From positions 1-64,000 of the forward strand of contig JACQFN010000016.1 in the NCBI GenBank assembly GCA_016200045.1: a stretch of DNA of 64,000 nucleotides. Direction: 5' to 3'. Shown here one piece after another: positions 1 through 2,710 of the stretch. Every line of letters starts with the position of its first letter. Within the stretch, counting starts at the first letter, position 1. The notes beneath the pieces are model-generated. The model was not told the DNA's origin. It ran no database searches and saw only the letters and a list, made by a program, of their open reading frames with translations. The stretch comes from Nitrososphaerota archaeon. Lineage in GTDB: Archaea; Thermoproteota; Nitrososphaeria; Nitrososphaerales; Gagatemarchaeaceae. The position numbers and the translations under genes were made by a program.

Positions 1-48
1 CAGCACCTGAAGCTAGCAGCGGAGAAGAAACACTACCCAGAGGACTGA
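1..48 (+). CDS. C-terminus of an upstream transposon gene (partial)
   Basis: The first frame is open from the window edge to a TGA at 46-48 and gives a lysine-rich tail ending in HYPED. It lies 8 bases before the tniQ start, so the two are probably one operon. In Tn7-like elements the gene before tniQ is normally the TnsC/TniB AAA+ ATPase, which is the likeliest identity. Fifteen residues are too few to confirm it. Confidence 0.45.
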   Translation, partial: QHLKLAAEKKHYPED

Positions 49-56
49 GCAAGGCA

Positions 57-1559
57 TTGAGGACTAGCGTCACGACCGTGACACTCCCTAGGTTTCCAAT
101 CCATCCACGGCCGCTTCCAGACGAATCAATGGAATCGTGGGTGCTTAGAAGAGCATACGCCAACTTTTTCACCATTTTGCAACTCGCCAGACGACACCAC
201 GGCCTCTCTTTGAAGGGCTGCAACTATGACTTCCTTGACAGTGAAAATGCGTTGTTCAGAATGGCGACGAGCGGCATCGAGGAGGCTCAGTCTGCAGGCC
301 TTGTCTTCTCGTCGTTCAAGACAGCACTGGGATCCAACTGGAAGTTGTGGGCAACTCCCAGTTTGGGGCCCCGAAGGTTCTGCCCGCTGTGTTTTGCAGA
401 AGAGGAAGTTCCACATCTCAAGTTGATTTGGAGACTCAATTTCGTGGTCGTATGTCTCAAACACTACGTCTTCCTCCAGAGCCAATGCGGACGGTGTGGA
501 GCTGCCTTCAGGCCTACCAATACAAATCGCTCCTTTGACATTAGAACATGCCATAGATGTGCAAATCACTTAGATGGCCGAGTTGTGCCTGCTGGTCAGA
601 ATGACAGTGGCTGCGTTGGCATCAAGGCGCTGGTACAGGTGCTCGAAGGCACTACCAATCCGAAAAGTTTCGGTTGGAGTGGGTCAATTCAGGAACTCTT
701 CTCCACTGTGGAGTTTCTCACACGATTCATCGGAAAATTGAACGGGCAGGAAGGCAGACTAGCTCATGCGAGGGGAATAGCCGTATTGCAGAGAAGTGCG
801 AACTTCAATCTAAACTTGATTGGCACGGCGTGGACCCTCCTATGTGACACACCAATGCTGGAGGAATTCATTCAGGCTCACCAGCGGCAATTCAATCGGT
901 CGACTAGGGGGTCCTGTCCTGAATTCTTGAAGCGATTCAGATGGCTACATGGTCAGGCTGCAAAAAAAGTTGACTTCGCTCCAGCCTTCAAAGCCGCTGC
1001 CATTATTGCGAACAGAGGGGAGCGTGTCGATTTGAAGAAGGTAGCAGAAGAATCTGGTCTGAATCACGGTACTCTTCAGAAACGCAATGCGGGTTTGCGA
1101 ATACTAGCAAGAAACCTCCAAAGGGAATTCAAAGAGCACAGACGGAGGAACTTGATAGAAGCAATGGGTGGCGCTCCTGTCAGCCAGGTCATAACAAACA
1201 GATGGTTAGCGAAGTCCACAGGATTGCCGAAATCCGTGGTCCAAGATATGTGTTATGGAGATCCCTTCTTGCGAGGTTTACGTCAATCCTCAAAGAGTAA
1301 AACGAAGCACTATTTTGCCTCATTTAGCTGCAGGAATCCAAAATGTCATGAATACGGCTTGGCTCTCACTGGACGTGTTAGGGACAAGCGCATTAGGGGA
1401 CCAACCAGTTTGGAGCCAAGTAGAGAAGCGATTCTCCGTTGTGCTACATGCAACAACTACTTCTGCATAGATGTCTCAAAGGCGCCGCTACAGCGGGCCT
1501 ACGGTCTGGATCTCGGACCAAAAATTGCTTTGGTCGGGATTACCGGTGACATCAAGTGA
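57..1559 (+). CDS. tniQ: TniQ/TnsD-family transposition targeting protein
   Basis: This 500-residue protein opens with the TniQ signature: a proline-rich start, then PLPDESMESWVLRRAYAN at about residues 20-37. A zinc-finger block follows at about 105-170, with FCPLC, a W-R-L motif, CLKH, CGRC and CHRC. A second cysteine cluster lies near the C-terminus (CRNPKC, CATC). The length is close to Tn7 TnsD rather than the shorter Tn402 TniQ. In Tn7-type systems TnsD/TniQ binds the attachment site and recruits the TnsC ATPase and the transposase. The start is TTG, 8 bases after the previous stop. The A/T-rich composition points to recent transfer. The family call is firm; the target it recognises is unknown. 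Confidence 0.85.
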   Translation: MRTSVTTVTLPRFPIHPRPLPDESMESWVLRRAYANFFTILQLARRHHGLSLKGCNYDFLDSENALFRMATSGIEEAQSAGLVFSSFKTALGSNWKLWATPSLGPRRFCPLCFAEEEVPHLKLIWRLNFVVVCLKHYVFLQSQCGRCGAAFRPTNTNRSFDIRTCHRCANHLDGRVVPAGQNDSGCVGIKALVQVLEGTTNPKSFGWSGSIQELFSTVEFLTRFIGKLNGQEGRLAHARGIAVLQRSANFNLNLIGTAWTLLCDTPMLEEFIQAHQRQFNRSTRGSCPEFLKRFRWLHGQAAKKVDFAPAFKAAAIIANRGERVDLKKVAEESGLNHGTLQKRNAGLRILARNLQREFKEHRRRNLIEAMGGAPVSQVITNRWLAKSTGLPKSVVQDMCYGDPFLRGLRQSSKSKTKHYFASFSCRNPKCHEYGLALTGRVRDKRIRGPTSLEPSREAILRCATCNNYFCIDVSKAPLQRAYGLDLGPKIALVGITGDIK

Positions 1560-1852
1560 ACAAGGTACTAACCAAGACGTACATCATAGTGGGAATCACA
1601 GCGGACCAAGAGAGCGCAGGGCATGTGTTCTTGTCAATGGCTGAAGAAGGCCTGTTCAAACCTCGCAGGCATGTTAACGGAGATGAGGAATACTTCGGCA
1701 ATTGGATTCCGAACTATTCTCGGCCCGAGTATTGCACTCGTGTCAAAGTGAATCTAGGTGATTACTACCGCTCGAAACTAGTCGTTGGAGACAAGGTGAC
1801 GATGGAGCTAGAAAGAAAAACAAAGACAAACCCCTCTTCTGATCCTCGTTAG
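1556..1852 (+). CDS. Small protein coupled to tniQ, unknown function
   Basis: The GTG start overlaps the tniQ stop (GTGA at 1556-1559), so translation is probably coupled. The 98-residue product has no transmembrane segment and no family I recognise. It looks like a small alpha/beta protein with an N-terminal strand (TYIIVGITA), an aromatic middle (EEYFGNWIPNYSRPEYC) and a basic tail. Its place between tniQ and the element end suggests an accessory transposition or regulatory factor; that is inference. Confidence 0.65.
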   Translation: MNKVLTKTYIIVGITADQESAGHVFLSMAEEGLFKPRRHVNGDEEYFGNWIPNYSRPEYCTRVKVNLGDYYRSKLVVGDKVTMELERKTKTNPSSDPR

Positions 1853-1882
1853 GAGGAGCCCAACAGAGACCTGAGATGACCT

Positions 1883-1929
1883 GGACATTTACTTCGCAAA
1901 AAAGGGACATTTGGTCACCGAAAGTGACA
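1883..1929. repeat. Tandem 22-bp repeats at the presumed transposon end
   Basis: GGACATTT occurs at 1883-1890 and again at 1905-1912, exactly 22 bp apart. The full 22-bp units agree at 14 positions. The second unit is followed at once by ACA (1927-1929). Tn7-like ends carry several transposase-binding repeats of about 22 bp and terminate in TGT/ACA, so this is read as the element terminus. The 5 bases after it (gcaac, 1930-1934) would be the target duplication; the partner copy is out of view. Confidence 0.55.
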
Positions 1930-2710
1930 GCAACTCTCCGAGTCCACACCACGCGTCGTCCAGCTTGAGAATCCCCTCGCTCAGTCCCATCAGGAGCCAG
2001 AGCCTCCCGTCTTTTCTTTCATAGGGATAGATGACGCTAGTGTAGAAATTGTACCCCCTGCCCCACGAGAAGAACGCAACGAGGGCCATCTCCTTCTCGA
2101 CCAGATATCTCGCGAGCTGGGTCACCCTAGAGTTGGTCTCCGCGACCTTCTTGTCGGTGTCAGGCGCGAGCTGATAGACCTCCTTGAACTTGTATTCCGA
2201 GACCCTTTCAATCGGGACGAACCCGTCCTTCTCCACTCCAATCCTGGTGGTCCTCTCGAACGGCGTGACCTCCTCCCCCTCTTGCTTGTCGAGCGTCTGG
2301 TCGAGTGGAATCTCAATCCACTTGCCCGTGAACTCCAGCTCATACTTCAGGAAGTAGCGCTTTTCCGTCCTGACCGAAACCGGGAAATCCCCCTTGTACC
2401 TTACGAACTTCTTGGCCTCGTCCGGAGAGACCTCCTGGACATCGAGCCGCTCCCCGTTCGGTCCTTCCTTGTACCGGTAAATCCTCGGAACTTCCCTGCT
2501 CACGACCTCCTTCCCAGTCTTCTTGTCGAGCTTCACCACCTTGACGGGCTGAAGGTCTCCGTGCGCCTTCGCCGCCCTGAGGTGGTATTCGACGGCGCCG
2601 AGGCCGAGTGTGGGAATGTCAAGGCTAAGGACGCCCCGCCACGACGCCCTCGAAGCGGTCGCGATCTCCGCCTGCTTCTCGACCTCTGAGAATATGTCCT
2701 TCTTCGGCAT
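1889..2710 (-). CDS. Possible Ku-like DNA-end-binding protein, 3' end altered by insertion
   Basis: The ORF is 273 residues. An early W-R-G at about residue 24, an R-I-Y-R-Y-K-E-G stretch, then FVPIERVSEYKFKEVYQL followed by APD and a block around LARYLVEKEMALVAFF recall the order of conserved pieces in bacterial Ku (ring-forming DNA-end-binding protein of non-homologous end joining). The likeness is weak and unverified. About 13 terminal codons lie inside the presumed transposon end, so the native C-terminus is probably missing and the stop is supplied by the element. No LigD-type ligase is nearby. If it is not Ku, it is a hypothetical protein. Confidence 0.4.
   Translation of the reverse strand: MPKKDIFSEVEKQAEIATASRASWRGVLSLDIPTLGLGAVEYHLRAAKAHGDLQPVKVVKLDKKTGKEVVSREVPRIYRYKEGPNGERLDVQEVSPDEAKKFVRYKGDFPVSVRTEKRYFLKYELEFTGKWIEIPLDQTLDKQEGEEVTPFERTTRIGVEKDGFVPIERVSEYKFKEVYQLAPDTDKKVAETNSRVTQLARYLVEKEMALVAFFSWGRGYNFYTSVIYPYERKDGRLWLLMGLSEGILKLDDAWCGLGELLSLSVTKCPFFAK

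Follow-up and report, generated by a model that had tools for sequence, protein, structure and literature searches.

Results

A Tn7-Like Element Split between Two Contigs

Does the left edge of this archaeal stretch of DNA belong to a Tn7-like transposon, and if so, into what did the element insert? Benler et al. 2021 found no homologue of the Tn7-like transposase in any archaeon (PMC8649781), a 2019 survey of the integrated elements of thaumarchaea lists no Tn7-like element (PMC6563490), and our search of the later literature, which left out preprints and most subscription journals, found no report of an archaeal one. The window analyzed here, 64,000 nucleotides in length, is C19:1-64000 of an assembly of 25 contigs (1.54 Mb; estimated contamination 2.55%). 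A first-pass annotation had proposed a Tn7-like transposon in an archaeon from a TniQ/TnsD-family gene, the tail of an upstream gene, a coupled small gene, and an element end, with the other tns genes expected further left. It saw nothing further left because contig C19 begins at window base 1, which is the true end of that contig.

A search of the genome itself for the DNA ligase led to the left part of the element, which lies on contig C7 of this assembly. There tnsA, tnsB, tnsC, and the other end are present together with the second copy of a 5-bp duplication, and the two parts are joined through a split ku gene (table 1), which bears out the proposal of a Tn7-like element. The element comprises C7:22793-37516, a short gap, and window 1-1948, with 16,672 known bases (~16.7 kb). 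The C7 portion holds cargo, then a TnsA–TnsB fusion and tnsC at its far end, where the contig stops at 37516; the window portion continues with the tail of tnsC (the upstream gene tail of the annotation), tniQ, a 98-aa open reading frame (ORF), and the right end. Alignment with 19 TnsC relatives indicates that the unassembled gap between C7 and C19 lies within tnsC and measures ~60 bp, or ~20 residues. Two pairs of genes overlap, tnsAB with tnsC and tniQ with the 98-aa ORF, and every tns ORF of the element is open. The element has a G+C content of 49.8%, compared with 58.6% genome-wide; a second stretch of low G+C (~50%) lies at C19:200000-231000 and is possibly another island. That this is an integrated Tn7-like element is, in our judgment, nearly certain, and the locus as a whole is very probably best explained by a Tn7-like transposon, nearly complete in structure, that integrated into ku in an archaeon of the class Nitrososphaeria.

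Table 1. Positions of the element's genes, ends, and host flanks on contig C7 and in the window.
Feature	Location	Strand	Details
ATP-dependent DNA ligase	C7:21872-22705		missing Ku tail just upstream
Target-site duplication CCACG, second copy	C7:22788-22792		
Cargo region	C7:22986-33628		
Cargo protein	C7:25744-26916		390 aa; no family match
TnsA–TnsB fusion	C7:34059-36668		869 aa; TnsA-like N-terminus, HTH, rve, and Mu-transpos_C in a single ORF
tnsC, main body	C7:36665-37516		ended by contig edge; TniB PF05621 E=1e-47
tnsC, 3' tail	window 1..48	+	QHLKLAAEKKHYPED, then stop; frame and position fit C-terminus of aligned TnsC relatives
tniQ/tnsD	window 57..1559	+	500 aa; TTG start; Pfam PF06527 E=2.1e-16 over full profile length
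Small ORF	window 1556..1852	+	98 aa; GTG start at 1556 overlapping tniQ stop
Third TnsB-site-like repeat, right end	window 1883..1900	-	TTTGCGAAGTAAATGTCC
New Ku tail from element DNA	window 1889..1948	-	CGLGELLSLSVTKCPFFAK, then stop; 19 residues in place of 26 native
Second TnsB-site-like repeat, right end	window 1905..1922	-	TTCGGTGACCAAATGTCC
Right terminal inverted repeat	window 1923..1948	-	TGTGGACTCGGAGAGTTGCTGTCACT; contains first repeat 1925-1942; last base of element 1948
Target-site duplication CCACG	window 1949..1953		
Host ku, 5' part	window 1949..2710	-	residues 1-254; PF02735 E=2.7e-7; intact in 7 relatives

Ends, Duplication, and Empty Site

The ends of the element are TGT...ACA inverted repeats: the left end on C7, TGTAGATTCGGAAAGTAGATGTCACC, is identical to the right end at 20 of 26 positions, a match equalled by 0 of 200,000 random pairs drawn from the genome. 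Each end carries three repeats, oriented as expected, that closely resemble TTCGGANANTNRATGTCC; their spacing is wide near the cargo (offsets 6, 40, and 94) and tight near tniQ (6, 26, and 48). About 0.05 such repeats are expected per 220 bp; the motif was itself derived from these sites, so their binding by TnsB is a prediction. An element end near this point had been recognized from the outset, and it is real, but its position had been given as 1929. We reject that coordinate and place the last base at 1948, because homology to ku resumes at 1949 and CCACG flanks both ends.

When the flanks are joined with a single copy of CCACG, they encode a 280-aa Ku that ends directly before the ligase. 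Alignments of this joined sequence to seven congeneric relatives continue through the junction uninterrupted, over ~1.7-2.3 kb at 76-81% identity. All seven ku-bearing relatives in the genus have this intact ku–ligase arrangement, that is, the empty site. These junctions bear on whether a bacterial Tn7-like contig was misplaced in an archaeal bin, for which the number of contigs, the estimated contamination, and the deviating G+C content might speak. Such an artifact is barely credible here, as the ends enter the two halves of one archaeal ku, one half on each contig, the 5-bp duplications agree, and the reconstituted flanks find their counterparts within the genus.

The host is an archaeon: the assembly carries the archaeal ribosomal protein L15e, which in a control set matches archaea only. 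It contains no small-subunit rRNA; AmoA is absent from the host genome and is found, in its archaeal form, in another family of the host's order (E near 1e-117), from which the class is inferred to be Nitrososphaeria.

Transposition Proteins

The TnsB part of the fusion retains the DDE residues D482, D565, and E601, which are invariant in the alignment, and the TnsA-type residues E42/E46, D75, and K91 are present in the N-terminal part. The TnsA domain was detected by Pfam at 1.5e-4 (below the Pfam cut-off) and by an NCBIfam TnsA-like model at 5e-16 (below the curated cut-off), and was also matched to TnsA genes by tblastn. Against Tn7 TnsB in the PDB, the fusion gives a match of only E=4e-12. 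A Tn5053/Tn402-like element, which is replicative and has TniA without TnsA as well as a resolvase, does not agree with the TnsA domain or with the lack of a resolvase among the element's ORFs. Neither TnsE nor TnsF was found in the element, the 98-aa ORF being much smaller than TnsF.

TnsC contains two Walker-A motifs (GSGGNGKTAVLDEF and SEAGNGKTALVQEF) 24 residues apart, where its 19 aligned relatives have a single one; with 27 of 48 nucleotides identical, the second is possibly an old tandem duplication. The gap in TnsC and this odd second motif mean that the activity of the element could be impaired. Both would suit a decaying relic that is no longer mobile, and low-G+C foreign DNA can persist. 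We nevertheless consider a relic unlikely, given that the tns ORFs are open, the catalytic residues kept, and the ends and target duplication perfect, and that the empty site in relatives suggests a young insertion.

TniQ is full length, as first annotated: besides the profile match (table 1), the AlphaFold prediction is of high confidence over residues 10-230, and every significant match to it in the PDB is a TniQ or TnsD protein, so that no other zinc-finger family accounts for it. (Three rows from plasmid records were left out of the input for fold prediction.) The N-terminal TniQ domain with its zinc fingers, whose Cys/His positions are invariant among 18 aligned TniQs, is followed by a C-terminal extension of ~270 aa that ends in a zinc-ribbon-like CxxxxC...CxxC. 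The C-terminal half is modeled with low confidence, and no homologue of the 270-residue extension was detected in the other loci compared. The small gene is coupled to tniQ by its start codon, as had been noticed; it has neither a family match nor known relatives, its fold model is of low confidence and uninformative, and it could be a targeting accessory or cargo.

Some transposons with fused TnsAB are the type I-B2 and I-D CRISPR-associated transposons (CASTs) (PMC11406308), which raises the question of RNA-guided insertion. Such guidance is highly improbable here: there is no cas gene among the cargo proteins and no CRISPR array or Rfam RNA in the C7 part, TniQ is as large as TnsD, and the gap in tnsC, judged by alignment, is too small for a cas locus. 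Given these negative results for the C7 part and the TnsD size of TniQ, protein-guided targeting is the simplest reading, and the target is probably chosen through TniQ. The new mode of targeting suggested in the first-pass annotation was not demonstrated.

Cargo and Distribution

The cargo includes a NucS-like nuclease, a ParE-like toxin adjoining a UPF0175-domain protein (a toxin–antitoxin pair), a metallo-beta-lactamase-fold protein with an RNase J-like signature, two Holliday-junction-nuclease-like proteins, an HTH protein, and a 1002-aa adenine methyltransferase similar to defense methyltransferases. The methyltransferase has relatives in other genomes of the same archaeal class, and the 390-aa protein occurs in five other genomes out of 300 drawn from the class; some of the cargo, at the least, thus belongs to the archaeal gene pool.

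As the annotation had recommended, we searched other archaeal genomes; roughly 800 draws at the level of class and phylum contained no further copy of the element. Of 400 class genomes, one gave a TniQ match above the curated cut-off. For TnsAB, the host genome stands alone: samples of 400 genomes from the class, 398 from the phylum (the draws overlap), and 46 from the family yielded no second case. Three weaker TniQ matches in the class are treated as chance: those in G055 and G249 have neighbors without TniQ or tns genes, and the third lies in a frame broken by stops. Weak rve matches elsewhere (50-160 residues, 27-39% identity) represent ordinary transposases unrelated to the element.

The best public relatives of TnsAB all come from bacteria and do not exceed 37% identity across TnsB, and wherever tnsA was found in these loci it is separate from tnsB. 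In a TnsB tree of 41 sequences, the archaeal sequence sits on a long branch apart from the main group of bacterial sequences; we name no donor because support for its exact place is weak. A viral scan with the single protein gave no match, and one with the alignment gave only distant TnsB of bacterial type. A contig scan using one short pattern, which is weak evidence, returned no closer relatives. One bacterial locus, on plasmid NZ_AP022827.1 of Nitrosophilus labii (L122:6971-13799), has two adjoining tnsA–tnsB pairs before a single tnsC–tniQ.

The recent transfer that had been read from the gene composition accords with the low G+C content and with the absence of the element from every relative. 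The idea holds less well in other respects, as no close bacterial donor was found and relatives of two or more cargo genes occur in the class.

The Insertion in ku

Both junctions fall in one host gene, ku. The element entered after Trp254, with 81 nt of ku left up to and including the stop codon, so that the Ku ORF as now read (window 1889-2710, opposite strand) borrows its tail from element DNA. In relatives of the genus, Ku has a different tail and the ATP-dependent DNA ligase follows directly; here the two genes are now 16.7 kb apart. Relatives show strong conservation of the ku coding stretch that adjoins the right end.

Together with a polymerase-beta-thumb protein, Ku and the ligase make up an end-joining cassette (C7:21312-22705 and window 1949-2710), which only 8 of the 31 genomes of the genus possess. 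Similarity to the locus stops at the edges of the cassette in five of seven relatives, so the cassette may itself be mobile.

Is ku the attachment site? We lean slightly towards an element that homes specifically to ku, on the basis of a single known insertion that by itself is inseparable from a chance landing. The insertion could instead be incidental, with a non-specific site, and TniQ reading another attachment site or none; a single copy is known, the element is absent from all sampled ku-bearing relatives, and the gene is truncated, whereas many Tn7-like elements spare their target gene (PMC8649781). We find this rather doubtful, though it deserves serious weight, in view of where the element sits: at the edge of the best-conserved stretch of ku, with its right end facing that stretch. 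The right end of Tn7 likewise faces its target sequence. TniQ is also of TnsD size, and insertion within a coding gene has a precedent in Tn6022, which sits within comM at a conserved motif (PMC10293859). A new attachment site, ku, is likely, in line with one of the annotation's suggestions.

Returning to specific homing, two known cases offer the model: Tn7, whose signal is the end of glmS, and Tn6022, whose signal is a conserved motif of comM, a coding gene inside which it inserts (PMC10293859). By analogy, TniQ probably reads ku. Its C-terminal extension would recognize the conserved coding stretch just before the insertion point, and TnsC, an AAA+ protein, would relay this signal. The TnsB part of the fusion would bind the repeats at both ends and cut and join the 3' strands, and the fused TnsA nuclease would cut the 5' strands, so that movement would be cut-and-paste; the element would then join beside the recognized stretch with its right end facing the ku sequence. 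The gene set, which is of the kind found in cut-and-paste Tn7-like elements, the catalytic residues, the ends, the 5-bp duplication, and the empty site are observations; the division of labor among the Tns proteins is proposed from known Tn7-like systems, and the activity of the element in transposition and the reading of ku by TniQ are presumed.

Discussion

The element belongs to a known kind, the Tn7-like transposons, and extends it to another domain of life; its site is unusual and its transposase is a fusion. With Tn7 (TnsABCD, glmS site) it shares TnsA, TnsB, TnsC, and a TniQ of TnsD size, TGT...ACA ends with several TnsB sites that are tighter at one end, a 5-bp duplication, and a right end towards the target gene. 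It differs in its TnsA–TnsB fusion, in the orientation of its tns genes (towards the right end), in its position inside ku and not after glmS, and in its archaeal host, and no TnsE was found. Fusions of TnsA and TnsB are known from the type I-B2 and I-D CAST group (PMC11406308), which has this single polypeptide, TnsC, and TniQ/TnsD in common with our element; here, cas genes and CRISPR are lacking and the target is not a tRNA gene. Tn6022 and the AbaR-type elements in comM (PMC10293859) are also Tn7-like and interrupt a conserved gene of DNA recombination, at a coding motif that is itself conserved, but they use a separate TnsF selector besides TniQ, where none was found here. The best relatives by sequence are bacterial loci with TnsA and TnsB, such as those in a soil proteobacterium (L135), a Rhodospirillaceae member (L136), and Nitrosophilus labii (plasmid pHRV44). 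Most of them share the order tnsA–tnsB–tnsC–tniQ; they differ in their bacterial hosts, in having TnsA and TnsB separate where tnsA was found, and in sequence, identity staying within the limit given above.

It is quite possible, although we stop just short of favoring the idea, that the element represents an archaea-adapted Tn7-like lineage, in which a fused TnsAB works with a new TnsD-type reader that homes to ku. Such a lineage would disable or alter nonhomologous end joining, as Tn6022 does with comM, and move archaeal cargo including the DNA methyltransferase, the NucS-like nuclease, and the toxin–antitoxin pair.

With its defined ends and an empty site in relatives, the element shows that Tn7-type transposition has crossed, or has always spanned, the boundary between archaea and bacteria, and that it carries cargo in archaea. 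The element provides an example of TnsA and TnsB fused in nature and probably of a new kind of attachment site, and is a possible starting point for tools for targeted insertion in archaea. It also allows a question to be tested: whether archaeal Tn7-like elements disarm the end joining of their hosts.
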